Below are positions 4,766 through 56,805 of a stretch of DNA of 64,000 nucleotides, in pieces. This DNA comes from Ancylobacter aquaticus (GTDB taxonomy: Bacteria; Pseudomonadota; Alphaproteobacteria; Rhizobiales; Xanthobacteraceae), in assembly GCF_004339465.1 (NCBI RefSeq), contig NZ_SMFY01000003.1:62001-126000 (forward strand). Direction: 5' to 3'. A program made the position numbers and the translations under genes. Positions within the stretch are counted from its first letter, which is position 1. Every line of letters starts with the position of its first letter. The notes below the pieces were generated by a model that worked only from the letters and a program-made list of their open reading frames with translations, searched no databases and was not told the DNA's origin.

Positions 4766-4769
4766 GCGC

Positions 4770-9634: not shown

Positions 9635-9792
9635 GAATGTTGGCATTCAGTTGGTGTTGGCATCGCCGATGCCAACAAATATGCCAACAAAACCGTTGGA
9701 TGCCAACGGATTACGCGAGCCTGTACCGAACTGCTGACGCCTCACAAAGTGTTGCGCTTCATAGATTTTCCGGACAGCCTCGGCGGAGGTGG

Positions 9793-9869: not shown

Positions 9870-10092
9870 TGACCGCGCGTACATGAACCCAATTGGGTAC
9901 GTCGATCAAGGGGGCGGCGGCGCTCATGGTGAAAGCGGGCCGTGGCGCGTGGCAGCGGGAGACGTGGCCGGTATGGGCGAAGGCGCCGGCTTGCGCTACG
10001 CTGCAGCGAGGTGCTGCGCGATCCGCGCCCCGGCCGCGGACGGGCGCCGATGTTGCGGCGGGCTGCGGCGTGGCGGCGTTCGCGACGTGACG

Positions 10093-11034: not shown

Positions 11035-11057
11035 AGGCAGCGACGGGCAGGAGAGGG

Positions 11058-37864: not shown

Positions 37865-37939
37865 GCGGGTGTAGCTCAGGGGTAGAGCACAACCTTGCCA
37901 AGGTTGGGGTCGTGGGTTCGAATCCCATCGCCCGCTCCA
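37865..37939 (+). tRNA. tRNA-Gly (anticodon GCC)
   Basis: A complete cloverleaf: acceptor stem GCGGGTG/CGCCCGC with one G-T pair, D arm TAGCTCAGGGGTAGAGC, anticodon loop TTGCCAA on stem AACCT-type pairs, T arm GGGTTCGAATCCC, discriminator T and encoded CCA (37937-37939). Its 3' part is repeated at 56755-56805, so it is the left attachment site of an integrated island. Confidence 0.96.
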
Positions 37940-37944
37940 AATTT
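37894..37944 (+). repeat. left attachment repeat (attL) within tRNA-Gly
   Basis: 51 bases from CTTGCCAAGG through the tRNA 3' end to CCAAATTT are identical to 56755-56805. This copy lies in the intact tRNA, so the gene stays functional after integration. Confidence 0.9.
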
Positions 37945-38349: not shown

Positions 38350-39879
38350 TTGGCCAAGTCCACATTCCAGAAATCGCTCGCTAAGGCGGGTAAGTACATT
38401 GATGAAGGATTTGACAGGAGCGATCCGCAGCTCACTGACCGGGCGTTCGCGGTTCTAGACCAGCTCGCCTTATGCAAGACCATCCGCGACGAAGATGAAG
38501 TTCTTCTGCACTACTTTCGCGCCAATGCATTCAACAACCGCCAGCACCACGAGGGACTGGCACAATCCTGGCAATGGGAGATGGAACATCTCCAAAGCGA
38601 GTTGCTCGAACTTCGTAGGGCTGTCAGGCATAAGGGGTTCGAAAAACTCCATCCGATCCGGCGCTGCCAAATTTTGACCAATCTCGGCGGCAAGCTCAAT
38701 TCAGTCGGTCGCCCTGTGGAAGCACTTCGTTATTGGGACAAAGCCCTGGCGATTGAGGGGCGCTTTGCCAAGGCGCTCTTTAGTAAAGGCGAGGGGCTGC
38801 TGAACTATGCTGATTCAGTCAGCGATCCGGGATATTCCCAACTCATTACGGGACAAGCTCACGATAACTTCGTAGCAGGAACAGCTCGCGATGCTGTGCA
38901 CGAAAATATAGAGGACACAAAGCTTGTTCCATATTTTGCTGAGCGAGCGAAAAAGATTTCAACGTGGCTCAATGTCAAATCCGCCAATGAGAATTTGGAA
39001 GAGGAGCACAGTCTGGGCCGATCAAGGGCAGAGAAGGCTTATCGTCGCTGGTGCTTGGAGAAGCGGTTGTTTCTCAATCCCATGAATGACCTCGGCACAT
39101 ACTCGATAGCCGCAATCGACAGCCTGGTTCTGCCGTCGATCACACTTGCTTTCGATAAGGGCGGAGCGATGCCCCCGGCAGTCTTCGGACTTTTCAATCA
39201 GCTCAAGCAGGAATTTGCTACGGCAAGGTTCTTCCTTTTTGAGGGAATGACGGCTGACACAGTGCACTTTGCCGACAAGTACGTGAAGCTCACAAACACG
39301 CTCGACTATCCGAGCTATGGGGTGAACGTCGAGAAGGCGCGACAGGCCTATCGAATGACGTATTCCTTGTTCGACAAGATTGCGTTCTTCCTGAACCATT
39401 ATCTCGAACTCGGCATTCCCGAGACAAAAGTGTACTTCAGCTCGATCTGGTATGAGACGAAAGGAAATCCAAGACCGCTCCGGCCGTTCTTCCAGGATAG
39501 GGCGAATTGGCCGCTTCGGGGCTTATTTTGGCTATCCAAAGACCTTTATGATCCTGAGCTACAGAAAGCCACAGAACCGGACGCGGAGGACCTGGCGGTT
39601 CTGCGTCATCATCTTGAGCACAAATACTGCCAGATTCACGAACAATGGGGCGTGACATTTGCCAATTTCAACGATGCAGAAACCGAAAAGATCGGCCTGC
39701 ATGTCGGAAGGCATGATTTCGAGGCGAAGGCACTCAGGCTAGTCGGACTTGCACGGGCCGCCATAATTTACCTGTGTTTGGCCGTTCACCGGGAGGAGAG
39801 ACTTAGGAAAGATGGAAACCCAGATGCAATTTCGATTCCTATGCTTGCCAACACATGGGACGACAAATGGAAAGTCTAG
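38350..39879 (+). CDS. LA2681-family HEPN-domain protein, predicted RNase
   Basis: A 509-residue protein. The N-terminal part is helical, with a TPR-like middle (GRPVEALRYWDKALAIEGRF, AKALFSKGEGLLNYADS). The C-terminal HEPN domain carries the R-x4-H motif in LRHHLEHKY (Arg, HHLE, His), the signature of HEPN ribonucleases. The protein ends NTWDDKWKV; the overall design matches the LA2681 HEPN family, found mainly in defence and mobile islands. Known HEPN toxins cut tRNA or mRNA, so a cell-suicide role in phage defence is likely but untested for this family. The start is a TTG; no upstream ATG in frame. Less GC-rich than the chromosome. Confidence 0.75.
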   Translation: MAKSTFQKSLAKAGKYIDEGFDRSDPQLTDRAFAVLDQLALCKTIRDEDEVLLHYFRANAFNNRQHHEGLAQSWQWEMEHLQSELLELRRAVRHKGFEKLHPIRRCQILTNLGGKLNSVGRPVEALRYWDKALAIEGRFAKALFSKGEGLLNYADSVSDPGYSQLITGQAHDNFVAGTARDAVHENIEDTKLVPYFAERAKKISTWLNVKSANENLEEEHSLGRSRAEKAYRRWCLEKRLFLNPMNDLGTYSIAAIDSLVLPSITLAFDKGGAMPPAVFGLFNQLKQEFATARFFLFEGMTADTVHFADKYVKLTNTLDYPSYGVNVEKARQAYRMTYSLFDKIAFFLNHYLELGIPETKVYFSSIWYETKGNPRPLRPFFQDRANWPLRGLFWLSKDLYDPELQKATEPDAEDLAVLRHHLEHKYCQIHEQWGVTFANFNDAETEKIGLHVGRHDFEAKALRLVGLARAAIIYLCLAVHREERLRKDGNPDAISIPMLANTWDDKWKV

Positions 39880-40195
39880 GTGCAGGTGAACCCGTGGTTG
39901 GTCAATGCGGCCATTAAGGTGGCGATGGCAAAACACTCAGCATCGCGTCCGCTTGCTCTGGTTGCCCACCGAGAGCGGACAGTCCGCTATCGGCTCCATT
40001 TGGGGAAGTGATTCCCGCTGTGCGCCCTCATTTCGGACGTTCCACGGTGGAAACCCTGATCCCAAAAGCTGCCATTCGTTCAGCCTGCCCCTGACGAAGG
40101 GATATCGGGTGGAAACCGGTCTTGCCACTATCGAGTGGCGAAGGCGTGCGTCTCGCTAGAAGAGGAACGGGCGGAGGGTCGCAAGTGCATACACT
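39880..40195. other. intergenic between convergent HEPN and HerA genes
   Basis: No gene recognised. It holds the small palindrome GCGGACAGTCCGC near 39990 and CGGACGTTC near 40045. Confidence 0.4.
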
Positions 40196-42199
40196 TTAGG
40201 CGCCCCAAGCCTCTATGACTTTGCTGAGCGGGAAGGCCGACGCCTCTTTGCGCCACTCATGATATGGCGCGGCAGTTTGGCTGTATGGTCCCGGATCTGG
40301 CCGATCAAATTGCACCCGCGTAGGGATGTGAAAGGCGCTACCGAACACGATTGCCTCGCCTGAAGCGAGGATCGTCACCTGGTCGAGCAGCCGCCGCGCC
40401 TGCATCGGGATGATGCGGCGGAAATGGTCGATGTCGTCGGGGTTCTGCAGCCGGTGGCTGATGAAATTGGCGCATTGGCTGATGATGGTTTGGCTTATCT
40501 CGCTCGGCCGCTGGCTGGCGATGATCAACGACAGCCCGAACTTGCGGCCTTCCTTGGCGATCCGCTCATAGGTGAGCCGCGCCAGGCGATGACCACGATC
40601 CTCGTCCGACCGCGCCGGGCGGGCATAATTGTGCGCCTCTTCGAGAACCAGGACCCACGGATGCTTGTAGCGCGAGGCCGCAGGCAATCGCTCACGCGCC
40701 TCAAGCAGGATTCGGCCAATGACTGCGCAGGCATAGGGCAATACCTCATTGCTCAGCATCGACAGGTCAAGCACCGAGACCTTGGGCCCGGCGTTGGCGC
40801 CAAGGCCAAGCCGGGAAAACCAGGACGATAGCGTTTCGACCTTGGTGGCAGCGTCCTCATAATTGAGGAAGGCGCGCCAACGCTTGTCATCGAGCCGCGT
40901 CTTCAGGCGCAGCTTTAAGGTCGTCAGATGCGCATCGACCCGGAATGTATCCTCTTTGGAAACCGCGCGGTTTATTAGCGATGGATCGGTCAGCGTCGCT
41001 CGCGCGATCGGCAGCGGGGAATCGGCGGTGCGTGCACCAGCCTCGGCCTCGCCACTGCCGCCGACGATCTTCGCACGGATCGCGTCCCTAAGCGCCTCGG
41101 CTGCCGCTGCGATCGCTGCCTGATTGTTCATCACCTCGGTGTTGTAGTCGTTAGCCGGGCGATGTCCGGTGAACAGAGCGGTGAAGGCCGTGGTGTCGAT
41201 CCCTGACCCGGCGAGATGGCCGGTGACCGCGTCACAATAGGAGCCGGCGGCCTTCTTTTTGATCTTGGTCAGTTCAGTCAGCAGCTGATCGAGCGCGCTC
41301 ATGGCGTTCTGGAACGCGCCCATGCTCGCGGCCGCGGTCGCATTGCCGCCCTTAGCGATCGCCCACCAATCCTTGAGCACCGGCTCTTGGGTCTGTTCTG
41401 ACGCGCTGAGCCAGGCACAGATCTCCTCGGCGTTGAGAAACCACAGCGGCAGGGCAAATTCTTTGCCGTTGAGGTAGATGCGATCGGGCAGCCGCTGTTC
41501 GGGTTCGGCGGCCGGGAAGGCCTTAGCGTATTCGCCATTGATATCCAGGATGAAGACGTGCGGCTCCTCGCGCGCGCCGTTGAGCGCCTTCATCGCCTTC
41601 TGGATGAGGCTGGAGACCGAGAAGGATTTGCCCGAACCGGTATTGCCGACGATAGCGAGCGGCCGCGAGAAGAGATCGTTATAGGAGGCGCGCACGACAT
41701 TGCGCGACTGCCCAGTCGGGAAACCAATCTTGAGATCGCAGTCGAAGTCTTTCTCTTCATAACCCTCGGGTTTGTTGCGCCGCGGCGGAATCTCGAAGAC
41801 GGCGCGCAGAATGTCGGGCGAGCCGATCTCCGCCGGCGTGTCGAGCGTCGGCAAAATCGAGATGCCCGGGCTGAAGGAGGGCTCGTCGTCATTATGCTCG
41901 ATCGTGCCGAGCAGCTGGACGCTCGCAACCCGGCGTGGCCTCATTAGTTCGAGACTGAGATCGTCGCCGCTGCCAGGATCAAAAGTCTCACGCGCTTCGA
42001 GATCGGTGATGATGCCCATCACCGTTTCGCCGGCGCCCAGCGCAAAGGTCAAATAAGCATTGATCGCGATTGCGGCCTGAACGCCGTCGACCGTCGCACG
42101 TAGCGCCGAGCGGGTTTCCGGTAGCAGCTCGACCTTCACCCGAAAGCCCTGGACCGAGACAATGTGGCCGATGAGGCGCGGATTATCCATCCGCGTCAT
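40196..42199 (-). CDS. HerA-type ATPase/helicase of a SIR2-HerA defence pair
   Basis: A 667-residue HerA/FtsK-like ATPase. The N-terminal beta-barrel (IGHIVSVQGFRVKVELLPET, TFALGAGETVMGIITDLEA) is the HAS-barrel. Walker A is IVGNTGSGKSFSVSSL (K191), and Walker B is HPWVLVLEEAHNYA; the region EGRKFGLSLIIASQRPSEIS carries the sensor/arginine part. HerA ring helicases pair with nucleases or SIR2 proteins; here the SIR2 gene directly upstream overlaps the start by 17 bases, so they are translated together. In known SIR2-HerA systems the two form a large complex that depletes NAD+ on phage infection. HerA supplies ATPase and DNA-sensing activity. Confidence 0.88.
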   Translation of the reverse strand: MTRMDNPRLIGHIVSVQGFRVKVELLPETRSALRATVDGVQAAIAINAYLTFALGAGETVMGIITDLEARETFDPGSGDDLSLELMRPRRVASVQLLGTIEHNDDEPSFSPGISILPTLDTPAEIGSPDILRAVFEIPPRRNKPEGYEEKDFDCDLKIGFPTGQSRNVVRASYNDLFSRPLAIVGNTGSGKSFSVSSLIQKAMKALNGAREEPHVFILDINGEYAKAFPAAEPEQRLPDRIYLNGKEFALPLWFLNAEEICAWLSASEQTQEPVLKDWWAIAKGGNATAAASMGAFQNAMSALDQLLTELTKIKKKAAGSYCDAVTGHLAGSGIDTTAFTALFTGHRPANDYNTEVMNNQAAIAAAAEALRDAIRAKIVGGSGEAEAGARTADSPLPIARATLTDPSLINRAVSKEDTFRVDAHLTTLKLRLKTRLDDKRWRAFLNYEDAATKVETLSSWFSRLGLGANAGPKVSVLDLSMLSNEVLPYACAVIGRILLEARERLPAASRYKHPWVLVLEEAHNYARPARSDEDRGHRLARLTYERIAKEGRKFGLSLIIASQRPSEISQTIISQCANFISHRLQNPDDIDHFRRIIPMQARRLLDQVTILASGEAIVFGSAFHIPTRVQFDRPDPGPYSQTAAPYHEWRKEASAFPLSKVIEAWGA

Positions 42200-43574
42200 T
42201 CGGCGTGGCTGCAGGCGTGGCGGACAAAGCGATCTGCTTTTCGAAGCGGCGAAGGCGCAGGAAATCGTCGAGCCACTGAACGTCCGGCATCACCGTGCGG
42301 GCGAAATCGTCGAATGTCGCCCGAGCAAAGGGCTCGAGGGCGAAGCCAGCCTCGGTCGGGCACAGCACGAAGGCGCGCTTACCGAGATCCTTGTAGCGGA
42401 GGATGCGCGCAATCACCGGGCTATTGGGATTAGGTTCGACCACCAGCATGATGAGCGATGGGTTCATAAGCGCGTTCTCTATGATCCGCGACACATGATC
42501 GTCGCCGAACCCGTAGCCAAGGACGAGCAGGAAGGTCTGGGGGATGCCGAGCCGTACCTGAAACGATCGGAAGAGGTGCGCATAGGGCATGGCCAGAGTT
42601 TGCGCGAATTTGTTGGCAGTGGGCAGAATTCCGACCGATCGAGCGTTCTGGGCTAGCGGGACAAGCGCTGCGGCCTTCTGCCCTGCGGTCATGCTGGCAT
42701 ATGCGCGATACGGCGCAAGGTCGGGATGGCGGGCGCGCATCTCGAGGCCTTGCTCGAACCAGTGGATGGAGCCGTGCAACTTGTAGAAATGAAGGAACTT
42801 GTCGAAGCGGCGTACGCGTCCTTCGGCAACTTCGCCGGGATAGTAAATGTCGAGGCCGTAGACTGATGGGTCGAAGCGCGCGGCGGCGCGGCCAGTGAAG
42901 CCATCGAAATATTGCACACCTAGAAGTTCGAGTGCCTGTTCGAACAGTGTGTCATAGTTAAGCGTGAAGAGGTGCGTGCGCCCGAGATTGCTGTCACGCG
43001 CGACCAGCTTGGAGAGGAAGGCCAGCTGGGGGGCGATCTTGTCCGCGGTGGTCGCCAGCGCGCTATCGGGCAGTGACAGCGCGCATTCGGCGAAGATCGC
43101 GATGCGCAGGCGGTCGACGAACCATTTGAGGTCATCCTTGGTCGGGGCCGGCGTGCTTGGCCAGGCGACGGCGCCGAACGGGCCGATAGCATTTTCGGCG
43201 ATCGCTAAGGCATTTGCCACGAAGGACAGCCAGACCTCAAACCCGATCGGCTCGCCTAGGAGATCGGCAAGTTGGACGTTGAGCCGGCGAGCTTTGAGGA
43301 TCGGCGCGATCGAGGCAGGCAGATCGGCCATCGCCTCGATGGTGTCGAAGACTGCCGTCTCGAGATTGGCCATGGTCTTGCCGCCTGCCGAGACCGATGT
43401 GCCTGAGCCGGTCAGGACGACCAGATTCTCCATGCGCAGCCATTCGGAGATCAGCGCCTGCAGGCGAACCCGTCCCTGCTTTTGATCGAGTCCGGCGAGC
43501 AGGTCGCCGATTCCGCCATCTTCGGCTAGGCCGATGAGCTTATAATCGATCGGATCCGGCGGCGTTGGCGTCAT
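42183..43574 (-). CDS. SIR2-family NADase of a SIR2-HerA defence pair
   Basis: A 463-residue SIR2-domain protein from the ATG at 43574 (AGGAAAGG site); a longer frame starts at 43613. The NAD-binding Rossmann part shows LVVLTGSGTSVSAGGKT, then TLNYDTLFEQALELLG with the conserved N-Y-D, and the catalytic His in FYKLHGSIHWFEQG. The C-terminal FLLVLGYGFGDDHVSRIIEN is a common feature of defence SIR2s. Such proteins hydrolyse NAD+ when activated by infection, killing or arresting the host cell. It is immediately upstream of herA on the same strand. Confidence 0.88.
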   Translation of the reverse strand: MTPTPPDPIDYKLIGLAEDGGIGDLLAGLDQKQGRVRLQALISEWLRMENLVVLTGSGTSVSAGGKTMANLETAVFDTIEAMADLPASIAPILKARRLNVQLADLLGEPIGFEVWLSFVANALAIAENAIGPFGAVAWPSTPAPTKDDLKWFVDRLRIAIFAECALSLPDSALATTADKIAPQLAFLSKLVARDSNLGRTHLFTLNYDTLFEQALELLGVQYFDGFTGRAAARFDPSVYGLDIYYPGEVAEGRVRRFDKFLHFYKLHGSIHWFEQGLEMRARHPDLAPYRAYASMTAGQKAAALVPLAQNARSVGILPTANKFAQTLAMPYAHLFRSFQVRLGIPQTFLLVLGYGFGDDHVSRIIENALMNPSLIMLVVEPNPNSPVIARILRYKDLGKRAFVLCPTEAGFALEPFARATFDDFARTVMPDVQWLDDFLRLRRFEKQIALSATPAATPNDADG

Positions 43575-43806
43575 GAGCCTTTCCTGTCGTTCCGCATCGG
43601 TGACGACGGTCAAGCGACCCGGCGCCGGTTGTTACCCTTCCCAAGGCGACGACGTCGAGTATGATGATCGCACGAAGCAAGTCAATTATCGTAGGGCCGG
43701 CGTTACCCTCAACTTCGACCTGAAGCAGCAACGGCTTGAGATCGCTTTTGTTTCTTGCTTTCTTAAGGAACAAACCTTCTACATCATTTCCCGAAAGTGA
43801 GGGGCT

Positions 43807-45165
43807 ATGACCAATTGGGACGATAGAAAAAGCGGCTGGAGGCAACACCCCGAAGACGCACGAACCCCGTTCGATGTTGATTATGCTCGCATTGTGCACT
43901 CGGGTTCATTTCGGAGACTGCAAGGCAAGACACAAACATTAAATCTGGGCGACAGTGACTTCTACCGAACACGTTTAACCCATTCGCTAGAAGTCGCCCA
44001 AATCGCCAATAGCATTGTAAGACAACTCGGGATATTCAAGGATCATCCTGCACATCCACATCTACCATCCGTCAGCCTGATTCAGTCAATTGGGTTTGCG
44101 CACGACCTTGGCCATCCGCCATTTGGCCACGGTGGAGAAGTTGCTCTTAACTACTGCATGCGAGATCATGGAGGGTTTGAAGGGAATGGCCATACACTTC
44201 GTATACTGTCGCGTCTGGAAAATTTCTCCGAAGATCACGGTGCCGATCTGACGAGGCGGACGCTGCTTGGCGTCCTAAAATATCCTGTCAGCTACAAGGA
44301 AGGAGCCAACCGCGAACGTGTCCCGAAGATGGACCAAGTGCCGCAATCAATACGCGTGATCGATAGGGAAAGCTGTAAGCCGCCCAAATGCTACTTGGAA
44401 TGCGAGCGGGATGTTGTCGACTGGATTCTGCAACCGCTTAGTCAGTTGGACCGTGATAAATTCACGGCTTTCGAACCACCTATGAAGGATGAGGACGGAA
44501 AGATAAAGCACGCAACGCCGCGGCACAAATCGTTCGACTGCAGTATTATGGATGTGGCCGATGACATCGCGTATGGCGTACACGACTTGGAGGACGCGAT
44601 CGCAATGGGCTTGGTGACTGAGCGTGATTTCCGTACGGCCGTCACCGAAGCAAAGAGCGGGATCTTTTTAAACGCCCTGAAGCAAAAGTACCCGAGCGAA
44701 AGTCAAAATAACGTCTACGAAACATTTTTTTGTAGCCTTTTTGGCGAAGGTAAGAGGCGTAAACACTATATCAGCAGATTGGTCCACCACTTCATAACAA
44801 ATATCGAGATAATTGAGCTCAAACAATTTGATGATCCGCTCCTAAGATTCCGCGCGGCCCTTTCCGCTCCCCAGCGGGACTTCCTGAACGCACTTCAGGC
44901 GCTGATCGTGGACAAAGTCATTAAGAGCGCGGAAGTTCAGCACCTAGAATTCAAGGGACAGAAGATGGTGATATCCGTCTTTGAAGCCTTAGTATCAGAT
45001 CCAAAAGCTCTATTGCCTGCCGACGCATATGCTGAGTTTGAGCGTTCGAATAGTGATGTGCGTGTGATCTGCGATCATGTAGCAGGCATGACCGATAGTT
45101 TCCTGCTTAAGACTTACGATCGCCTCTTCAGTCCGCGCATGGGGTCTGTGTTCGACAAGCTGTAG
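43807..45165 (+). CDS. dGTPase-like deoxynucleotide triphosphohydrolase (HD)
   Basis: A 452-residue HD-domain enzyme of the dGTPase family. It opens with RIVHSGSFRRLQGKTQTLNL and the first His in RTRLTHSLEVAQIAN; the HD pair is SIGFAHDLGHPPFGHGGE, and the last ligand is in IMDVADDIAYGVHDLED. These bind the metal that cuts dNTPs to nucleosides and triphosphate. dGTPases act as phage-defence proteins by draining dNTPs; this gene sits divergent from SIR2-HerA inside the island, which supports that role. The ATG has GAGGGG 3 bases upstream. It is distinct from housekeeping alphaproteobacterial dGTPases of about 400 residues, and its codon use is less GC-rich. Confidence 0.85.
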   Translation: MTNWDDRKSGWRQHPEDARTPFDVDYARIVHSGSFRRLQGKTQTLNLGDSDFYRTRLTHSLEVAQIANSIVRQLGIFKDHPAHPHLPSVSLIQSIGFAHDLGHPPFGHGGEVALNYCMRDHGGFEGNGHTLRILSRLENFSEDHGADLTRRTLLGVLKYPVSYKEGANRERVPKMDQVPQSIRVIDRESCKPPKCYLECERDVVDWILQPLSQLDRDKFTAFEPPMKDEDGKIKHATPRHKSFDCSIMDVADDIAYGVHDLEDAIAMGLVTERDFRTAVTEAKSGIFLNALKQKYPSESQNNVYETFFCSLFGEGKRRKHYISRLVHHFITNIEIIELKQFDDPLLRFRAALSAPQRDFLNALQALIVDKVIKSAEVQHLEFKGQKMVISVFEALVSDPKALLPADAYAEFERSNSDVRVICDHVAGMTDSFLLKTYDRLFSPRMGSVFDKL

Positions 45166-45458
45166 TCAGCACGCGCGAAGTTGGACACGCTCATTGTTCG
45201 CTTTCCAGAACATAAAACTTGGCGAGTGGGTGAACTCGCCTCGATTGCGGACAGCGGCTCCACGGCCCGTGGGGCCGTAAGCATTTCAAATGTTAACAAG
45301 GGGGTGGGAAGCGGACCAGACAATCTTTGCCCCCTTCGGCAAATCTAAGACAGCAACTTACTGCCTTCAGCTCACCAGAAGCGGACCGTCCGGAGACGGC
45401 CCCATGCCGGACGTTCAGACCCGCACTTGGCAAGGTCCACTTCTGGCGCTTGTGGCTA
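45166..45458. other. intergenic between dGTPase and XRE genes
   Basis: No gene recognised; contains another copy of the CGGACGTTC motif near 45411 and runs resembling GCGGACCGTCCGG. Confidence 0.4.
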
Positions 45459-45680
45459 TTAGCTTGTCAGCAGTTGCGCCGGCTCCACGCCAATCGCTTT
45501 GCAGATTTCGATGAACTCTGCCACGTCGAGCCGGCGCTCACCCAGCTCGTACTTTGAGACGAACGTCTGCCGTTGGCCGAGACGCTCAGCTAGTTCGACC
45601 TGCGTAAGGCCGGCATCCTTCCGGGCCTGGACCAGCCGCGCAATGATCGCCTGATATTGTTCGAGATATATCGAAGCCAC
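45459..45680 (-). CDS. XRE-family helix-turn-helix regulator
   Basis: A small regulator of about 73 residues from GTG 45680. The helix-turn-helix is LVQARKDAGLTQVELAERLG followed by QRQTFVSKYELGERRLDV and EFIEICKAIGVEPAQLL. A longer open frame begins at TTG 45737, but that would place the start inside the palindromic operator. It is divergent from the gene at 45791 and most likely represses its own gene and that neighbour. Confidence 0.8.
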   Translation of the reverse strand: MASIYLEQYQAIIARLVQARKDAGLTQVELAERLGQRQTFVSKYELGERRLDVAEFIEICKAIGVEPAQLLTS

Positions 45681-45728
45681 GGGTTCGCCAGCGTGTGAGC
45701 CAGCACGCCAAAGAAACCCGAATTTCGG

Positions 45729-45747
45729 ATACCCCAAATCGGGGTAT
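45729..45747. promoter_or_regulatory. palindromic operator between the XRE regulator and the divergent gene
   Basis: ATACCCC-AAATC-GGGGTAT has perfect seven-base arms and lies in the 110-base gap between the two divergent genes, where an XRE dimer would bind. Confidence 0.6.
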
Positions 45748-45790
45748 TTCGATATGCCTGTCGCTCGGTTCGGTTCCGGAGCGGCGATGC

Positions 45791-46567
45791 ATGAAAGAAC
45801 AGTACGTCGGCGACATCAGCGACTATCGGAAATACGCGCTGCTGCGCGCCCTAGCAGCGAGCGGTACGAACCGGATGGGCGTGTGCTGGATGCTAACCGC
45901 CCCGGATGGGCGCGCCGATGGCGGCAAGCTTGCCTATTTGCAGCAACCCGAGCGCTATCGGGCTTTCGATCCGGATCTATTCGACATGCTGGCCCATGTG
46001 GCCGCCGAGCCGGACCGGCGCCGGCTGGGGTCTATCGAGGCGAGCGAGGCTGTCCCCGGCGCGACCTATTTCAACGCAGCGATGAGCGACGACCTACTCG
46101 GCCGTTCGGCCTATATGGCTGCGTGCCAGTCAGCGCTGGCTACCGCCGAGCTAATCTTCTTCGATCCGGACAACGGCCTCGAAGTGGCATTGCGCAAAGG
46201 CCGTAAGGGCTCGTCCAAATTCCTCTACCTCGACGAAGTTGCCACCTTCTACGCTGCGGGAAAGTCGCTCCTGGTCTATCAGCACTTTCCGCGCGTCGAG
46301 CGAGAGGCCTTCATCCAAGATTGTGCCGCGCGGCTCCGCGGTGTCGCACCCGATGCCGACCTATGGGCGTTCAGAACCGCTCACGTCGTGTTTCTCCTGC
46401 TGCTTCACCCGTCGAGCCCTCCATCACTCGTGAAGGCGGGCCGCGCAGCATGCAACCGTTGGCCCAGCGACTTCGTACGCGGCTACCCCGTCAGTTCCCC
46501 ACCCTCCGACCCGCTGGCGCAACTACTTGTCGAGCTGGAAGGCGATGCCGCCAGTGGACGCGGATAA
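45791..46567 (+). CDS. conserved protein of unknown function opening KEQYVGDISDYRKYALLR
   Basis: A 258-residue protein I cannot assign to a named enzyme family. The opening MKEQYVGDISDYRKYALLRA is a strongly conserved-looking head seen in other hypothetical proteins of mobile DNA. A central ELIFFDPDNGLEVALRKGRK carries an FFDPDNGLE motif that looks like an active site or ligand loop. A later FLYLDEVATFYAAGKSLLVY and QHFPRVEREAFIQDCAARLR follow in a pattern suggesting alternating strands and helices. No signal peptide or membrane helix. Divergent from an XRE gene with a shared operator, and placed beside defence genes, so it may be an effector or nucleic-acid-modifying protein. Confidence 0.6.
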   Translation: MKEQYVGDISDYRKYALLRALAASGTNRMGVCWMLTAPDGRADGGKLAYLQQPERYRAFDPDLFDMLAHVAAEPDRRRLGSIEASEAVPGATYFNAAMSDDLLGRSAYMAACQSALATAELIFFDPDNGLEVALRKGRKGSSKFLYLDEVATFYAAGKSLLVYQHFPRVEREAFIQDCAARLRGVAPDADLWAFRTAHVVFLLLLHPSSPPSLVKAGRAACNRWPSDFVRGYPVSSPPSDPLAQLLVELEGDAASGRG

Positions 46568-46623: not shown

Positions 46624-47172
46624 ATGCGCTCGATGGCAATGGTTTCAATTCTGGCAGTGACGGTCGGGGCGTGCTCGCCGATCGACAAGAAGGTCGAGCT
46701 GAGCGGAATAAGCGCCGGTGCCGCCCGAATGGCCGGGCCCGGCGACACAGTGATGGATTTCCGCATTACCAAGCCACTGCCAAATGCATTCGGGCAGGCC
46801 GACATATTCGGCCGCACCACCAACGCCGGAAAAGTCAGCGTCCGCTACCTGGGCAACCAGGACGGGCGGGCGGTCTTCGAGCGCTCCGACATCACTGTCG
46901 AGAGCAACGCCACGACGATGAACCAGACCCCGATGATGATCCCGCAGACCTCGGAGACGCGGGTATCTGGCATGGTCGGCGGCACGCCGGTATCGGGCAA
47001 CGCGACGTCGACGTCCTACACCTATGTCGGGCCGCGCCCGACAACGAGCTATGCGACGGCGGCACGACCTCTCGAATTCGCGCTGCGGCCCGGTGAGAGT
47101 GTGAGCATTGAGGGCCGCAGCCTGACTGTCATCGGGATCGCTGGAACCTCGGTCGAGTATCGGGTCGATTGA
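46624..47172 (+). CDS. putative lipoprotein, unknown function
   Basis: A 182-residue protein with a short lipoprotein signal (MRSMAMVSILAVTVGACSP, lipobox VGAC). The mature part is beta-rich, Ser/Thr/Gly-rich, with a Met/Thr-rich centre (NATTMNQTPMMIPQTSETRV) and an ending that looks like a small beta-sandwich (FALRPGESVSIEGRSLTVIG). No family recognised. AGGTGA precedes the ATG. It could be a surface-exclusion or phage-adsorption-blocking protein given its place on a mobile island, but this is speculation. Confidence 0.65.
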   Translation: MRSMAMVSILAVTVGACSPIDKKVELSGISAGAARMAGPGDTVMDFRITKPLPNAFGQADIFGRTTNAGKVSVRYLGNQDGRAVFERSDITVESNATTMNQTPMMIPQTSETRVSGMVGGTPVSGNATSTSYTYVGPRPTTSYATAARPLEFALRPGESVSIEGRSLTVIGIAGTSVEYRVD

Positions 47173-47800: not shown

Positions 47801-49030
47801 TTAACCATAGACCTGCTCCAGCGCGGCAATGGCGGCCGATCCGCCGCGAACGGCCTGGGTGTAATGGCCGAGCGTCACGTTGGGATTTGCATGGCCGGCA
47901 ATCTGCGCCACCAAACCAACCTCGATGCCTTGGGCCTGCAAGGTGGAGATGAAGGAGTGCCGTGCCGAATGCGGCGTGACGTAGGGCAGGCCGAGCGCCT
48001 CGAAGGCCGGCACCCAATAGCGCTTACGGAAGTTTTGGTAGAGCAGGGCGCCACCGCCACCGAGGCGGGGCAGCGGCCAAGGCTGCAGTCGGCCAGGGCC
48101 GGGAAACACCCGATAGAGCTCTTTCCCGTTCCGAGGGCAGCGAAGGCGCCAGGCCAGCAGCATTTCGCGCAGCGTGGCACCCATGGGGATTTCCCGCGTT
48201 CCCGCCTCCGTCTTTGTCATGTCAGTCAGGGAGCCGTCGCGCTCCTGCACGCGGCGGATATGGACGATGCCGTTCTCGAAATCGACATCGCTCCACAGCA
48301 GGCCCAACTGTTCGCTGGGACGCGTACCTGCCAAGAAGGGGAAGGCGTAGTAGACGCCGTGCTCCAAGTCGTCACGCGCGGCCTTGATCAGAGTGCGGAT
48401 GTCCTGCGACGTAAGAATGGTCTTCTTGGGCTTGTGGCGCTGACGGGTAAGGCCGGTCGGCATCGACGGCGCACGCACCCCAAAATCCTCCTCCGTAAGC
48501 GCGAGAACCGATTGGAGATGCGACTTCGCCCGGTTGGCGCTGTAGTTTCCGCACTGTTCGACGATAGTGCGGTGCCAGGCACGTATCTCCGCCGTCGTCA
48601 GCTCGTTGGTCTTCACGTCGCCCAGGAGCCGGAGGAACTTGGCGCCCTTGGGCTTGACGCCCGTCTCGGTGAAGTCATGCCGTTCGCGTCGGCTGCCCTC
48701 GAGCAGAGGCCCGCAGATGAGATGTGCGACGACCTTATACCCGGCGAGCGTGGACGGCTTCACCTTCCCGGCTTTGTCGGCGAGCCAGTGATCTAGCGCG
48801 GCCGCGACCGTCGGAACGGTGCGCTCATCGACGTGGGTTCCGTCGGCGACCTTGGCCAGCAGCTCCCGCTGCTTTGCCTCGGCGTCCTTCTTCCGCTCGA
48901 AGAACATCTGGCGACGCTGCCCTGTTTTGGGCTCCCGGTAGTTCAGCACGTAGCGGTCTTGAAGTGCGACGGCTCCCGAGATGAGCTTCCGCTTGCGCGT
49001 TCGTTTTGTCAGGGTAACTGAGAAGTCCAT
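47801..49030 (-). CDS. tyrosine-type site-specific integrase
   Basis: A 409-residue phage-type integrase. The N-terminal arm-binding part contains RYVLNYREPKTGQRRQMFFE; a SAM-like core-binding domain spans VAAALDHWLADKAGKVKPST onwards. Catalytic residues are visible: Arg in FLAGTRPSEQLGLLWSDVDF, the HSAR box in PHSARHSFISTLQAQGIEV, then a late His in AGHANPNVTLGHY with the nucleophilic Tyr in GHYTQA. The family commonly targets tRNA 3' ends. It is the best candidate for the enzyme that made the tRNA-Gly repeats, although it lies in the middle of the island. Confidence 0.88.
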   Translation of the reverse strand: MDFSVTLTKRTRKRKLISGAVALQDRYVLNYREPKTGQRRQMFFERKKDAEAKQRELLAKVADGTHVDERTVPTVAAALDHWLADKAGKVKPSTLAGYKVVAHLICGPLLEGSRRERHDFTETGVKPKGAKFLRLLGDVKTNELTTAEIRAWHRTIVEQCGNYSANRAKSHLQSVLALTEEDFGVRAPSMPTGLTRQRHKPKKTILTSQDIRTLIKAARDDLEHGVYYAFPFLAGTRPSEQLGLLWSDVDFENGIVHIRRVQERDGSLTDMTKTEAGTREIPMGATLREMLLAWRLRCPRNGKELYRVFPGPGRLQPWPLPRLGGGGALLYQNFRKRYWVPAFEALGLPYVTPHSARHSFISTLQAQGIEVGLVAQIAGHANPNVTLGHYTQAVRGGSAAIAALEQVYG

Positions 49031-49364
49031 AGCGATCACCGAGCACAATGAAAAAGCAAAACCAAAACACGCCGACGTAACCGGCACAATTAATCGCTAA
49101 GGTATCGCCGGCGAGCGGGAGAGCGTTCCCGACGTAACCTGTTGCGTAACCGCGAGATGCTTAGGTGTGTCGAGCCCCGCGGTGGCGGGGTTCGTGGCTA
49201 TTCAGATTCCCGCGTCGACCGGGTTGAAATCGCAGCGGTGGCACGGTGGCACGGGTGGCCCACCGCAGTGGCAGCGCCCGCCGCCCTACGCCGCCCAGGA
49301 TGACATTGGGCCGGCGCGGCGGGCCTCACCGTGGCCGCGCCACCCATGCCACCATGCCACCGGG
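49031..49364. other. intergenic between integrase and primase-helicase genes
   Basis: No gene recognised. The right half is filled by a large inverted repeat (49237-49361). Confidence 0.5.
49237..49361. repeat. inverted repeat of GGTGGCA units, candidate replication origin
   Basis: The 22-base arms 49237-49258 and 49340-49361 are complementary except at two positions, and each contains two GGTGGCA-type units plus GGGTGG. The block abuts the 3' end of the primase-helicase gene, where element-encoded replicases often have their origin iterons. Confidence 0.65.
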
Positions 49365-51539
49365 TTAAATTGCCAAGCGCTTGTCGTCGGCGTGGTCGGT
49401 TCTTTTCGGGCGAGAAAAGCCTCGCACTGTTCGCCCGCCAACTTTGAACTTGTCCCGCTTCCAGCCCAAGTTTTGGAGCAGCAGCGAAAGCCGTTTGGTG
49501 TGTGCTTGGGTCTGGCGGTCTCTCTGAATTCCGAGGTTCGTGGAGAGCAGATCATCGGTATAGAGACGCGCTTCCTCACCAGCGGCCACCCCGTTAAGTC
49601 CTTCCAACATCGGCAGCCAGGGATCCTCTTCCAGCCGAGCCTCTTGCTCAACCGCGGCGGCCTCCCACAGATCGGACGGCAACTCGATGGATTCGCCCTG
49701 CCGCTCGCGATAAGCGGCCTCGGCCAACAGCTGGTCCCGGTCCTCATGCAGAGCGACGAGGTCAATTTCGCCGGTTTTTACGGGCCAGAATCGACGGTTT
49801 CCCGTCTGGTCGCGGAGATATTTGTCTTCATTGGTCGTGCCAATAAAGACGGCCTGTCGAGGTCGGATTACAGCAAAATATCCGTAGGCCATTCGCGCCT
49901 TGTCGATCTGGCGAGACGCGAAGGCTTTGATCTTGTTGACCTCAGCCTTGTTCATCCCCTCGACTTCGCCAAGTTCATAGAACCAGACGCCGTCAAGCAG
50001 CTCGATTTGCGCCTTGGCATCGAGCGAAAGGATTTCCTGATCGGAGTGGTTGCCCTCGCCCGCAAGGATGCGGATCGATGTCGACTTCCCCGAGCCCTGC
50101 CGCCCTTCAAGAACGATGATCTGATCGAACTTGACCCCGGGCTGCCGAATGCGGCGCACGGCTGCGACAAGGAGGATGCGTCCCACAGCCGTATTCAGCG
50201 GCGTGTCCGGGGCGCCGAGGTACCTGTTCATCCAGGTATCGAGGCGATCTTTTCCATCCCAGGAGAGCGCATCTAGCATCTCCCGAATTGGGTGAAATGT
50301 GTTCTCCAGGCATAGGCCTGTGATCGCATCCCGTACATGGTCTGCTCTAGGATCGAAATCGAAGCGGTCAATCACCAGATTGCGAATTACCGAAACGGCG
50401 TCATCGCTTATCTCACCTTGATGCTCTTCGAGCACGTGCCCCATCAATGTTTTGCGCTGCCTAAATGCGTCGAACTGACATTGCAGGTCTAGGCGGCGTA
50501 TCGCGACCATAGCATTGCGCATCGTTGCGCGCGGGCGTCCGGCCTTATCTGCGTCGGGCCAGCCGTCATTTACCGCCGCCAATCCCGCGAGGGCTTGCTT
50601 TAACGCGTATGTCTGAGGGCTTCGCTTTTCGAGGATCGACTGCGAAATACCGTAGCCCGGGTTTGACAGAATGCCTGCTATAGTTTCAGCAGAGTATCCT
50701 GCCCGCGCCATTCCGCACGAAACATAGAATACTGCCTCGCTGCGCGACGGATACCGTGCTTTTGCGCTGCCGCGCGGTCGCTCTGCATCATCCCCGGTCA
50801 GGATTAACGTACGAAGATGTTCTGTAAGATCCGCATGAAGATCGGCGAGGCTCATAGGAACAATATGTCCTATGGTTGCGGCTTGGTGGATTACGGTGAG
50901 CGGTGCCGCGGCTATATTGAGCAATGCGGCTAAATCCTCCAGCCCGTATCTTAGCTCCCATTCAGTTGCGACAATTTTGGCCATCACGGGCACTCGGCCC
51001 ATCCCTCGTTTCTTCGCATTTGGAACGTTAATCGTCCAAGGTACGCGCATAATTCTATCGATGTTGTGGCAATGATCGCCGCCTAACTGCTCAGCGATAA
51101 GTCGATTGATATCTTCCACCGCTGCTAGATCGGACACCGGTTCCCGAAGCAGCCAGAATGCTTGGAACCCGCCACCCGAATGCACAATGACGGTCGGCTT
51201 GATCGGAAAGTTGAGGATGCGCCCCAAAGCGTTCGTGTCATCGACGTCGACATGCAGCGCGCGCGCCGCTTCGATGTCGGACTTTTTGGCCTTCCGATTC
51301 CTGATGCCCTGCTTTAGTCTATTGACCTGAAAGTAAATATTGCAGCGATTTTGGTGGCTGTTGATCCATTCAACCAAATGATCATGTTGATCTTGGTTGA
51401 ATGTCTTCGGATTAATGTCCCAATCGGGGCCGATTGCGACACAGTGGATATCGTTACCAGCGCAAAAATGGCGGAGGAAGTCAGCGGCTTTCACGCTTGC
51501 CGCGTGCAGCGCGGCTTTGTCAAAGAGCTTATCCATCAT
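49365..51539 (-). CDS. primase-like / VapE-type helicase replication protein
   Basis: A 724-residue protein from the double ATG at 51536/51539. The N-terminal 300 residues resemble a RepB-like primase (HVDVDDTNALGRILNFPIKP, TVIVHSGGGFQAFWLLREP, RIMRVPWTINVPNAKKRG). The C-terminal VapE/superfamily-3 helicase domain has SWDGKDRLDTWMNRYL, Walker A IVLEGRQGSGKSTSIRIL, GVWFYELGEVEGMNKAEVNK (Walker B region) and FIGTTNEDKYLRDQTGNRRF. Such proteins initiate replication of integrative elements and phage satellites. Its start overlaps the stop of the AlpA-like gene (ATGATG). Confidence 0.85.
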   Translation of the reverse strand: MMDKLFDKAALHAASVKAADFLRHFCAGNDIHCVAIGPDWDINPKTFNQDQHDHLVEWINSHQNRCNIYFQVNRLKQGIRNRKAKKSDIEAARALHVDVDDTNALGRILNFPIKPTVIVHSGGGFQAFWLLREPVSDLAAVEDINRLIAEQLGGDHCHNIDRIMRVPWTINVPNAKKRGMGRVPVMAKIVATEWELRYGLEDLAALLNIAAAPLTVIHQAATIGHIVPMSLADLHADLTEHLRTLILTGDDAERPRGSAKARYPSRSEAVFYVSCGMARAGYSAETIAGILSNPGYGISQSILEKRSPQTYALKQALAGLAAVNDGWPDADKAGRPRATMRNAMVAIRRLDLQCQFDAFRQRKTLMGHVLEEHQGEISDDAVSVIRNLVIDRFDFDPRADHVRDAITGLCLENTFHPIREMLDALSWDGKDRLDTWMNRYLGAPDTPLNTAVGRILLVAAVRRIRQPGVKFDQIIVLEGRQGSGKSTSIRILAGEGNHSDQEILSLDAKAQIELLDGVWFYELGEVEGMNKAEVNKIKAFASRQIDKARMAYGYFAVIRPRQAVFIGTTNEDKYLRDQTGNRRFWPVKTGEIDLVALHEDRDQLLAEAAYRERQGESIELPSDLWEAAAVEQEARLEEDPWLPMLEGLNGVAAGEEARLYTDDLLSTNLGIQRDRQTQAHTKRLSLLLQNLGWKRDKFKVGGRTVRGFSRPKRTDHADDKRLAI

Positions 51540-53207: not shown

Positions 53208-54779
53208 ATGGTCATCAACTGGAACAACGGCAACGATCAAATCCCATCGGCCGAGCCGCTGGGGATACCCGCTGCTGAATATGTCCGCATGTCGACCGAA
53301 CACCAGCAATATTCCACAGATAATCAGACTTTAGCAGTTCGTCTATATGCTGAACAACGCGGCTTCCGCATCGTGCGAACCTACGCAGACGAGGGAAGAA
53401 GTGGTCTCACGGTTGGAGGGCGCCCTGCTTTAAAGCAGTTGCTGTATGACATAGAGCACGGTCAGGCCGACTTTCGAGCTTTGCTCGTCTATGACGTAAG
53501 CCGGCTAGGGCGGTGGCAAGATACAGACGAAGCCGCCAGCCACGAGCTTCGGTGTCGACGGGCCGGCATCGCGGTCCATTATTGCGCGGAGCAGTTCGAG
53601 AATGATGGCAGCATCGGCTCCTCGATCATCAAAACCGTCAAACGCGCGATGGCCGGGGAATACAGCCGTGAATTATCGGTCAAGGGGTTCGCAGGGCAGG
53701 CAAACTTAATCAGGCTCGGCTACCGCCAAGGCGGAGCGGCCGGTTTCGGTCTGCGCCGCCTTCTTGTCGATCAGCATGGTGAGGCTAAGACGGAGCTTAA
53801 GCACGGACAGCAGAAAAGCATCGCAACCGATCGCGTGATCCTTGTGCTAGGGCCACCGGCGGAAGTGAAATTTGTTCAGCAGGTTTATCGGCTATTCGTC
53901 GATGGCCAAAGCGAGCAGCAGATCGCGGACTTTCTGAATGGTCAGGGGGTGCTCTCAGATCTTGGTCGACCCTGGACGCGAGGGACAGTTCATCAGCTTC
54001 TGACCAACGAAAAATACATTGGGAACAACGTCTGGGCACGTACCTCCTTCAAGCTGAAGGACCGGCACGTATCCAATAAGCCTGAAGATTGGATCCGTGC
54101 TGACAATGCGTTCCCACGGGTTGTCGACCCGGAAACGTTCGACAAGGCTCAGGCGATCATCGCATCGCGGGCACAGCACCTCAGCGATGAGGCAATGCTA
54201 GAGATTCTGCGATCGATCCTTGAGCGCAACGGCATGCTATCCGGGCTCATCATTGATGAGATGGAAGGCGCGCCGTCGAGTAGTTCCTATAGGTGCCGAT
54301 TCGGTGGGTTAATCCGAGCCTACGCCCTAGCTGGGTTTTCGCCCGCCCGGGACTACCGTTACCTCGAGATCAATCGGAAGCTGCGCTCGCTGCACCCGGC
54401 CCTTGTGGATGAGGTGCTCGCTGGCTTGCGATTGGCTGGCGGGATCGTCATTCGGAATCCACTCACGGACATACTCACGATCAATGAGGAGTTCACGGCC
54501 TCCATCATTATCGTGCGGTGTTTACGGACGTCGGCCGGATCGCTGCGATGGAAGCTGCGGCTCGACACCGCTCTGAAGCCTGACCTGACCGTTGCAGTCC
54601 GAATGGACGAGAACAACATGGTTCCCCGCGACTACTATCTCTTGCCGAGGCTCGATATGCGAACGGCCGTACTTAGGCTAAGCGAGCATAACGGCTTGTC
54701 GCTCGATGCGTATCGCTTCGATACCCCCGATACCTTTTACGGAATGGCTGCCCGGCAACCGTTCCCGAGGGCCGCGTGA
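53208..54779 (+). CDS. large serine recombinase
   Basis: A 523-residue recombinase. The N-terminal resolvase domain begins AAEYVRMSTEHQQYSTDNQT with the catalytic Ser in RMSTEHQ, followed by TYADEGRSGLTVGGRPALKQ and the Arg-rich LLVYDVSRLGRWQDTDEAAS. The middle recombinase domain has QQIADFLNGQGVLSDLGRPW and LLTNEKYIGNNVWARTSF. The zinc-ribbon cysteines common in large serine recombinases are not evident in the C-terminal part, so this is a smaller, ribbon-less branch. Its stop overlaps the next gene's ATG (TGATG), coupling it to two ParB/RepB-like genes. Close to the right end of the island. Confidence 0.85.
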   Translation: MVINWNNGNDQIPSAEPLGIPAAEYVRMSTEHQQYSTDNQTLAVRLYAEQRGFRIVRTYADEGRSGLTVGGRPALKQLLYDIEHGQADFRALLVYDVSRLGRWQDTDEAASHELRCRRAGIAVHYCAEQFENDGSIGSSIIKTVKRAMAGEYSRELSVKGFAGQANLIRLGYRQGGAAGFGLRRLLVDQHGEAKTELKHGQQKSIATDRVILVLGPPAEVKFVQQVYRLFVDGQSEQQIADFLNGQGVLSDLGRPWTRGTVHQLLTNEKYIGNNVWARTSFKLKDRHVSNKPEDWIRADNAFPRVVDPETFDKAQAIIASRAQHLSDEAMLEILRSILERNGMLSGLIIDEMEGAPSSSSYRCRFGGLIRAYALAGFSPARDYRYLEINRKLRSLHPALVDEVLAGLRLAGGIVIRNPLTDILTINEEFTASIIIVRCLRTSAGSLRWKLRLDTALKPDLTVAVRMDENNMVPRDYYLLPRLDMRTAVLRLSEHNGLSLDAYRFDTPDTFYGMAARQPFPRAA

Positions 54780-55672
54780 TGAATCCGCGGCCCGCACAAA
54801 GGGTCGAATGGGTCCCCATTGAACGGATCAACGTCCTCAATCCCCGCCTCCGCAATAAGCGGGTGTTTCGGGAGATAGTCGAGAACATTGCGAAGATCGG
54901 GTTGAAACGGCCTATCACCGTTACAAGGCGGGTCGAGGCTGGTGGGCCATTCTACGATCTCGTGTGTGGGCAGGGCCGGCTCGAGGCGTATCAAGCACTC
55001 GGCCAGCAGGAAGTTCCGGCACTTGTCGTTAGCGCTGACACAGAGGACTGTTTGATCGCGAGTTTGGTCGAGAACTGTGCTCGCCGTCAGCACCGCGCCA
55101 TCGACCTCCTGCAGGACATCGGCCTGATGCGCGAGCGCGGCCATTCGGTAACGGACATCGCTCGGAAAACCGGCCTGTCATACGACTATGTGTACGGTGT
55201 GGCCCGCCTATTGGAACAAGGTGAGCAACGCCTTTTACGTTCAGTCGAATCCCGCACCATCCCCCTCAGCGTCGCCTTGGAGATCGCGGAAGCTGACGAC
55301 CACAGCGTGCAGCGAGCGTTGCAGGACGCCTACGATAAGGGCCTTCTCCGCGGCAAACGCCTGCTCGCCGCTAAGAAGCTGGTCGAGACCCGTCGTCGCC
55401 GAGGCAAGGAACTCGACGCGCAGAAATCGTCCGCAACGAAGCGTTTATCTACTGCAGAATTGTTGAGGACGTATGAGGAGGACGCCGAGCGCAAACGCGA
55501 CATGATCCGGCGAGCAAATGGTTCAAAGGACCGTTTGGTGTTGATTGTCGAAGCCTTTCGGCGGCTTTCTCGCGACGACACCTTCATGGGGATACTAGAA
55601 GACGAGGCGCTGATGAGCATGCCGGAACGGATCGCGACGCGCCTAACTCAGTCCCAGGAGAGAAGGGGATGA
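54779..55672 (+). CDS. ParB-like partition protein
   Basis: A 297-residue ParB-domain protein. The N-terminal ParB box has EWVPIERINVLNPRLRNKRV, FREIVENIAKIGLKRPITVT, YDLVCGQGRLEAYQALGQQE and the LVENCARRQHRAIDLL helix. The central helix-turn-helix is ARKTGLSYDYVYGVARLLEQ. No ParA partner is nearby. Together with the next gene and the recombinase it forms a three-gene unit with coupled starts, so it probably assists recombination, element stability or regulation rather than plasmid partition. Confidence 0.8.
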   Translation: MNPRPAQRVEWVPIERINVLNPRLRNKRVFREIVENIAKIGLKRPITVTRRVEAGGPFYDLVCGQGRLEAYQALGQQEVPALVVSADTEDCLIASLVENCARRQHRAIDLLQDIGLMRERGHSVTDIARKTGLSYDYVYGVARLLEQGEQRLLRSVESRTIPLSVALEIAEADDHSVQRALQDAYDKGLLRGKRLLAAKKLVETRRRRGKELDAQKSSATKRLSTAELLRTYEEDAERKRDMIRRANGSKDRLVLIVEAFRRLSRDDTFMGILEDEALMSMPERIATRLTQSQERRG

Positions 55673-56562
55673 CGACAAAGCGTCCCGTGACGTCGGTAAA
55701 GCTTGGTTTTGAGGAAGCCAGTCTGCGAATCCCCATCAACGTCATCATGCCGCTGCGCAATGTTTCGGAGACGGTTCGCAGGTCCGTTAAATATGCCCAA
55801 ATCGCCGCCTCAATTGCAGAGGTCGGGATCATCGAGCCGCCGGTAGTCGTTCGCGACAGCGCCGACAAGGAGCAGTTTCATCTCCTCGATGGCCACCTAC
55901 GTCTAGACATCCTCAGGGCCCGGGGCGAAACGGAGGTCGTCTGCCTGATCGCGCTCGACGATGAGGCATTTACATATAACAAGCGCGTCAGCCGGATTGC
56001 GATCATTCAGGAGCATAAGATGATCCTGAATGCCATCCGCAAGGGCGTACCCGAGGAACGGCTAGCTCGCGCCCTCAATGTTAATATCGCGAATATCAGG
56101 ATGAAGCGGAACCTGCTCGTCGGCATCTGCCCGGAGACTGCCGAGTTGCTACGGGACAAGCATGTACCGCTCAGCGTTTTCACCGAGCTCCGTTTCCTGA
56201 AGCCGATGCGCCAGATCGAAGCGGCGCAGTCCATGATCACTATGAACCGCTATTCCACCGGTTATGCCCGGTCGCTTGTCGCGTCAACGCCGGAGGACCA
56301 GCTTGCCGAAGGCCGGCAGCGGCGTAGGCGCGGACTGACCGATGAACAGATCTCGGTGATGCAGCGCGAGTCGGAAAATCTCGATCGGCAATTCAAACTC
56401 GTCGAGCAAGCGTATGGGGCCGACCAACTCGATCTGGTCCAGGCTATCGGCTACGTGAATCGCTTACTGGGTAACGCTCGTATCGTCCGGCACCTTGCTC
56501 AGCATCACGCAGGGATTCTCGCCGAACTACAGAAGGTGATGAGTCTGCAGGAGGCCGCTTGA
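55669..56562 (+). CDS. RepB-like partition protein (ParB superfamily)
   Basis: A 297-residue protein related to RepB of alphaproteobacterial plasmids. The ParB-like N-domain is RRSVKYAQIAASIAEVGIIE, PPVVVRDSADKEQFHLLDGH, LRLDILRARGETEVVCLIA. The C-terminal RepB-type helical domain contains IRKGVPEERLARALNVNIA and QIEAAQSMITMNRYSTGYAR. Its ATG overlaps the preceding stop. With no RepA, origin or ParA nearby, it appears to be a chromosome-borne adaptation of plasmid machinery. Confidence 0.8.
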   Translation: MTTKRPVTSVKLGFEEASLRIPINVIMPLRNVSETVRRSVKYAQIAASIAEVGIIEPPVVVRDSADKEQFHLLDGHLRLDILRARGETEVVCLIALDDEAFTYNKRVSRIAIIQEHKMILNAIRKGVPEERLARALNVNIANIRMKRNLLVGICPETAELLRDKHVPLSVFTELRFLKPMRQIEAAQSMITMNRYSTGYARSLVASTPEDQLAEGRQRRRRGLTDEQISVMQRESENLDRQFKLVEQAYGADQLDLVQAIGYVNRLLGNARIVRHLAQHHAGILAELQKVMSLQEAA

Positions 56563-56754: not shown

Positions 56755-56805
56755 CTTGCCAAGGTTGGGGTCGTGGGTTCGAATCCCATCGCCCGCTCCA
56801 AATTT
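56755..56805 (+). repeat. right attachment repeat (attR), partial tRNA-Gly copy
   Basis: Identical over 51 bases to 37894-37944. It carries only the 3' part of tRNA-Gly (from CTTGCCAAGG), without the D arm or 5' acceptor strand, so it is not a tRNA gene. Confidence 0.9.

Follow-up and report, generated by a model that had tools for sequence, protein, structure and literature searches.

SIR2-HerA (Nezha) is described in PMC11559045 as a complex of 12 SIR2 and 6 HerA subunits that hydrolyses nicotinamide adenine dinucleotide (NAD+) and needs both of its components, and a Vibrio cholerae island containing both Gabija and Nezha is published there. PMC11676413 credits Tal et al. with defence enzymes that deplete deoxycytidine triphosphate (dCTP) or deoxyguanosine triphosphate (dGTP) when infection occurs. 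The LA2681 family of HEPN proteins is listed in Table 1 of a HEPN survey (PMC3710099) with its ribonuclease (RNase) motif kept and with a TPR fusion; the excerpt available from that survey reports no experimental test of the family. Relatives of SIR2 and HerA, of the antiphage dGTPases and of the LA2681 family are encoded at positions 38,350 to 45,165 of the stretch analysed here, 64,000 nucleotides of Ancylobacter aquaticus contig NZ_SMFY01000003.1 (the window). We conclude that these four genes very probably fill an exchangeable defence-cargo slot of an element integrated at a transfer RNA gene (tRNA-Gly), where they make up three independent, separately captured modules (SIR2-HerA, dGTPase and HEPN).

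A first-pass annotation had placed the four genes side by side in a mobile island, and they are indeed present and open in the order and orientation it gave (Table 1). Its view of them as defence-type cargo, whose effectors would attack NAD+, dGTP and RNA, is supported.

Slot exchange in a tRNA-Gly element

The element is 18.9 kb long and is bracketed by a perfect 51-bp direct repeat, the left copy of which overlaps the 3' end of the tRNA-Gly gene. With these attachment repeats and with an integrase and other mobility genes inside, it has the make-up of a tRNA-attached element, and the mobile island of the first-pass annotation is real. G+C content (GC) drops from ~0.68 immediately to the left of the element to 0.53-0.64 within it. 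The HEPN, HerA, SIR2 and dGTPase genes occupy the interval from the left repeat to the helix-turn-helix (HTH) gene at 45459, and it is this interval that differs among related elements.

The integrase was found in 3 of 30 genomes of the genus and, at the threshold chosen, in 9 of 297 genomes of the order, the genome of the window being counted in both. In G673, of the same genus, the tRNA-Gly element shares the integrase (75% identity), orf182 (93%), orf260 (85%) and the HTH gene (93% over the best 74 residues) and has repeat copies at both ends, while its slot is occupied by type I restriction-modification genes. The G662 element, likewise at tRNA-Gly, keeps the integrase (72%), orf260 (62%) and the repeats, and its slot is empty. 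Three further elements lie at tRNA-Gly: the slot of G833 carries multi-ubiquitin/E2 and ThiF-JAB genes together with a gene for a UvrD-PD(D/E)XK protein, that of G917 encodes an AAA ATPase along with a protein whose STAND match is below threshold, and that of G938 has no cargo. Thus, of the six tRNA-Gly elements, the window's included, two have an empty slot, and the cargo of the remaining four is different in every case.

At tRNA-Thr stand two integrase relatives that are more distant, with cargo between the integrase and the tRNA: a cyclase (361 bits) of a cyclic-oligonucleotide-based antiphage signalling system and a phospholipase (317 bits) in G143 (L206, 12705-16094), and a PD-Lambda-2_B match (140 bits) in G822 (L205, 4457-5659). 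In G819 type III restriction genes stand at least 11 kb from the integrase, and G766 gave a 25-bit PtuA match only. A literature search for defence hotspots at tRNA-Gly gave a single paper, on Pf phages. The side of these elements that runs from the tRNA to the HTH-orf260-integrase genes is a concrete place to seek new defence genes in this order.

Linkage and borders of the SIR2-HerA and dGTPase modules

The SIR2 and HerA genes are adjacent on the same strand and overlap by 17 bases, and both match their PADLOC profiles (PDLC04085 and PDLC04106). The SIR2 start is likely the ATG at 43574 and not the TTG at 43613, because the six-sequence alignment begins at that methionine and DNA homology fades just upstream. 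Residues N207 and H268, which we take to be catalytic in SIR2, are invariant in 6/6 aligned sequences. The nearest solved chain, 8j4u_A, is the SIR2 of an entry that also contains a HerA-like chain, and it aligns with 99 bits over residues 186-382 only. Scores against the NCBIfam antiphage SIR2/HerA equivalogs lie far under the cut-offs (143 vs 500, 224 vs 850 and 208 vs 800 bits), so the pair belongs to a divergent clade of SIR2-HerA and is classed as such, rather than among those equivalogs. SIR2 of this clade (at least 484 bits) occurs in 5 of 398 genomes of the phylum, A. aquaticus included, and relatives at ~75% identity or more come mainly from genera that we assume to be Alphaproteobacteria. 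No SIR2 relatives were found in viral contigs.

The dGTPase exceeds the curated cut-off of the antiphage family (Table 1), and H59, H99, D100 and D252, presumably the metal ligands of its HD domain, are invariant in 10/10 sequences. A second, different dGTPase is encoded elsewhere in the A. aquaticus genome. The search for relatives covered plasmids, phages, viral contigs and 289 genomes of the class, of which 4, A. aquaticus counted, carry an antiphage dGTPase above the cut-off. On an Escherichia coli phage-like plasmid (L212, NZ_CP122941) a dGTPase of the antiphage type, 42% identical to that of the window, lies among genes for head processing, lysozyme and single-strand binding, which suggests a use in phage-phage competition.

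To survey linkage, a SIR2 pattern scan built on a six-member alignment was run over a collection of 84,980 species, each represented by a single genome. From the 143 relatives that it returned, the best 80 (79 loci) were retained; with 4 genome loci and 1 plasmid these gave 84 SIR2 loci, of which 82 are distinct, two contigs being present twice (L035/L087 and L037/L093) and other near-identical copies remaining. Sixty-three of the 84 reach at least 44% identity, the remainder being distant SIR2 relatives. A same-strand HerA match accompanies SIR2 in 82 of the 84 loci, following it in 81 and preceding it in L110, and HerA matches occur in 61 of the 63 closer loci. No dGTPase was found in any of the 84; in the window it lies upstream of SIR2, and on that side 73 of the loci extend for 1.7 kb or more. 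HEPN was likewise found in none, 62 loci extending at least 4 kb downstream, and on this count HEPN was rejected as a part of SIR2-HerA. Conversely, SIR2 was found in none of 51 dGTPase loci (3 genomes, 13 plasmid stretches and 35 viral contigs), of which 47 include 1.7 kb or more of upstream sequence; 28 are at least 42% identical over at least 300 columns, and the matches of the remaining 23, being short or more distant, are perhaps not of the antiphage kind. In one of these 23 (L271) a stretch of 143 residues is HerA-like (27%).

DNA homology draws the same line. The SIR2-HerA block aligns with DNA of Neoroseomonas lacus (L038) and Sphingomonas hylomeconis (L039), and the dGTPase block with Rhizobium and Agrobacterium plasmids (L167 and L168); the ~156 bases separating the end of the first block (43633-43636) from the start of the second (43793) are common to neither homology. 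Because DNA homology is broken between SIR2 and dGTPase, we regard the two as separate modules. Base composition also differs, GC and GC at third codon positions being 0.62/0.76 for HerA and 0.62/0.75 for SIR2, 0.50/0.55 for the dGTPase and 0.52/0.60 for HEPN.

These results bear directly on the suggestion, made in the first-pass annotation, that the dGTPase may belong to SIR2-HerA as its third component. In such a system the genes would share the 232-base divergent promoter region and act in one response. The dGTPase and SIR2 genes are adjacent and divergent, with start codons 232 bases apart, and between them lie three weak promoter-like matches, distributed over both strands, the whole 7.9 kb region holding 7 such matches vs 3.7 (standard deviation 1.9) in shuffles. 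Against this stand the absence of either partner from the loci of the other, the homology break and the difference in composition. The annotation had also held that a lack of recurrent linkage between dGTPase and SIR2-HerA would refute the idea; the survey found no linkage of SIR2, HerA and dGTPase as one system, and the idea is therefore largely refuted, its probability now being minimal. No literature naming both SIR2-HerA and dGTPase was found in a search that reached few subscription papers. A proposed three-part system is thereby removed, for the reason that genes standing next to each other in a defence slot need not be related cargo.

It is also very improbable that the cluster is coordinated as a single layered abortive-infection unit, in which attack on RNA, NAD+ and deoxynucleoside triphosphates (dNTPs) would be triggered together. 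Three effector types do cluster within 7 kb; however, their orientation implies three or more transcription units, spread over both strands, the surveyed SIR2-HerA and dGTPase relatives occur without the other modules, and related elements carry quite different cargo. The layering that had been proposed holds only weakly, as the co-location of defences that are independent of one another.

The plasmids L167 and L168 raise a different possibility. Their dGTPases, the two closest relatives found (81% identical), follow the Gabija genes GajA (819 and 803 bits against the PADLOC Gabija models) and GajB (746 and 749 bits) on the same strand, at a distance of ~155 bases. PMC8136825 describes inhibition of GajA by nucleoside triphosphates (NTPs) and dNTPs, so a dGTP-depleting neighbour could sensitise GajA. 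On this view the dGTPase might be a portable helper to which neighbours gated by nucleotides owe a greater sensitivity: with dGTP lost, inhibition by nucleotides would be lifted from GajA-type nucleases and perhaps also from the HerA ATPase. Both plasmids, however, represent one lineage (GajA 91% identical); a dGTPase is absent within 5 kb of further GajA relatives in all three opened, of 53 records listed; the 49 dGTPase loci that remain of the 51 gave no GajA match; and this analysis yielded no evidence for dNTP gating of SIR2-HerA. The dGTPase-Gabija unit, seen on two plasmids of a single lineage, and the helper role proposed with it are kept as a rival of low probability.

Several points weigh against our preferred reading of a slot with separately captured modules. 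The SIR2 scan demands exact peptide patterns, and of its 143 relatives the best 80 entered the survey; 11 of the 84 SIR2 loci have less than 1.7 kb upstream and 22 less than 4 kb downstream, where HEPN would sit. L038, the closest SIR2 relative in DNA, has 254 bases upstream to the contig end, its homology to the window stopping at its base 196, so the best comparator can show neither presence nor absence of a dGTPase. The slot argument draws on six tRNA-Gly elements, with repeats checked in the window, G673 and G662 and the other three assigned by tRNA-Gly position; the G673 integrase has one in-frame stop; stretches at the level of the order were taken from 7 of the other 8 integrase genomes, leaving out G187; and no tRNA was found in the stretches taken from G819 and G766.

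With separately captured modules preferred, the enzyme actions can be proposed by transfer from characterised relatives. SIR2-HerA would act as an operon of two genes, with HerA permitting the SIR2 NADase to destroy NAD+ upon infection; a stand-alone antiphage dGTPase would strip dGTP from the pool needed by the phage; and a stand-alone TPR-HEPN protein is predicted to sense infection via its TPR half and to cut RNA via its HEPN half. NAD+ depletion, dGTP depletion and the predicted RNA cleavage would act independently. The analysis itself demonstrates the sequences, the borders of the modules and the exchange of slot contents; sensing by the TPR half, any protection, and all activity in A. 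aquaticus are what we infer.

The LA2681-type HEPN protein

The HEPN protein is the only one of the four without a known-defence match, PADLOC 2.0 models giving none, and it is in this respect that the analysis singles it out. It has a TPR-like N-terminal half and a C-terminal HEPN region, with the PF18733 match spanning residues 273-482, and it contains the Rx4-6H motif of LA2681 HEPN proteins as R419-x4-H424. Both residues are invariant in 11/11 aligned sequences including the window's, down to 24% identity, and in 15/15 of a second alignment, which includes 14 viral-contig relatives. The Rx4H motif is present at 15 of the 16 viral-contig HEPN loci checked, a count that leaves out 5 of the 21 found; the open piece of L235 is without it. 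A structure model (mean predicted local distance difference test score 80.8) gave no fold match in the PDB at E <= 0.001, and because the matches listed are mostly TPR or TPR-containing proteins, the comparison is uninformative on the HEPN half.

LA2681 HEPN proteins are encoded in 4 of 398 genomes of the phylum and 3 of 289 of the class, A. aquaticus counted each time. In a literature search that reached few subscription papers, the survey PMC3710099 was the only paper to name LA2681 together with HEPN. PADLOC matches were obtained at 4 of 6 HEPN plasmid loci, the sample being 6 of 10 plasmid loci opened, with the other 4 and the genome loci L164-L166 left out; since the 11 defence-looking neighbours scored there were hand-picked and had no control, a HEPN-defence neighbourhood is only a hint. 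On a Gemmobacter plasmid (L172) an LA2681 HEPN gene (9959-11542) directly follows a gene (4971-9836) for a 1621-residue protein that matches the PADLOC candidate PDC-M54A with 1202 bits, with a Hachiman HamA match nearby, an arrangement that is possibly a clue to HEPN partners.

We tentatively propose, at somewhat less than an even chance, that an integrase-sharing family of tRNA elements in this order has a dedicated exchangeable defence slot and that, in addition, the LA2681 TPR-HEPN protein is an unrecognised stand-alone antiphage RNase triggered via its TPR half. What is new is modest, namely a slot for defence genes in one particular family of elements, together with a defence candidate that has no PADLOC match, the LA2681 HEPN protein; the locus is otherwise mostly ordinary.

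Remaining features and likeness to known systems

Between the defence slot and the integrase lies orf260, which is matched in 5 of the 6 tRNA-Gly elements, the window's included and G917 excepted (loci L185, L187, L201 and L203). It has no match in Pfam, PADLOC, NCBIfam or PHROGs, no solved relative and no viral-contig match, and our impression is only that it might be an enzyme. In the VapE-domain protein a RepB-primase match (PF16793) scores 23.8, slightly below the cut-off of 24.3. Elsewhere in the window, a second low-GC stretch (~5000-9869, GC down to 0.47) lies beside a tRNA-Arg gene (9793-9869) and is possibly a decayed second island. Within it, an open reading frame at 8427-9524 gives the impression of an integrase and a short one at 6603-7172 that of the beginning of an AAA/OLD-type ATPase; no direct repeat of at least 18 bp was found in 3000-10500.

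Table 1. Slot modules and other features of the tRNA-Gly element, in window coordinates.
Feature	Position	Strand	Basis
LA2681-type HEPN protein, 509 residues (TTG start as listed)	38350..39879	+	Pfam PF18733 251 bits, cut-off 27
SIR2-HerA module by DNA homology	40017..43636	.	90% to L038 (40017-43633), 82% to L039 (40182-43636)
HerA ATPase/helicase, SIR2 partner	40196..42199	-	PADLOC PDLC04106 1278 bits; Pfam PF01935
SIR2-domain protein (predicted NADase), probable start ATG 43574	42183..43574	-	PADLOC PDLC04085 854 bits; Pfam PF13289
dGTPase module by DNA homology	43793..45167	.	73% to L167 (to 45167) and L168 (to 45166)
Antiphage-type dGTPase (dGTP triphosphohydrolase)	43807..45165	+	NCBIfam NF041026 'antiphage_dGTPase' 548 bits, cut-off 400
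tRNA-Gly (GCC), integration target	37865..37939	+	ARAGORN; Rfam RF00005 68.6 bits
Left attachment repeat, 51 bp	37894..37944	+	100% direct repeat
HTH (Cro/C1 type) regulator, backbone	45459..45737	-	Pfam PF01381; 93% over best 74-residue segment in G673
orf260, conserved backbone gene	45785..46567	+	85% in G673, 62% in G662
orf182, backbone gene	46624..47172	+	93% in G673; 56% in G833
Tyrosine integrase	47801..49087	-	Pfam PF00589; PHROG integrase
VapE-domain replication protein (start assumed)	49365..51539	-	Pfam PF05272 230 bits
Serine recombinase	53208..54779	+	Pfam PF00239, PF07508
RepB/ParB-like protein 1	54776..55672	+	Pfam PF07506
RepB/ParB-like protein 2	55669..56562	+	Pfam PF07506
Right attachment repeat, 51 bp	56755..56805	+	100% direct repeat

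Compared with known systems, the window's SIR2-HerA pair is like Nezha in its PADLOC profile scores, its same-strand HerA and its invariant N207 and H268, and differs in forming a separate clade, under the NCBIfam equivalog cut-offs and with only 99 bits to 8j4u_A. The dGTPase is like the NF041026 family in its 548-bit score and its invariant metal-site residues, and nothing notable differs, the window being the sole examined locus where it adjoins SIR2-HerA. The HEPN protein resembles the LA2681 family in its PF18733 score, Rx4H motif and TPR fusion, and differs from known defences in having no PADLOC 2.0 match. The element as a whole is like described defence islands at tRNA genes and exchangeable slots, being tRNA-attached, with a conserved backbone next to which the defence cargo varies, and differs in being a particular family, marked by this tyrosine integrase together with the HTH gene, orf260 and orf182.

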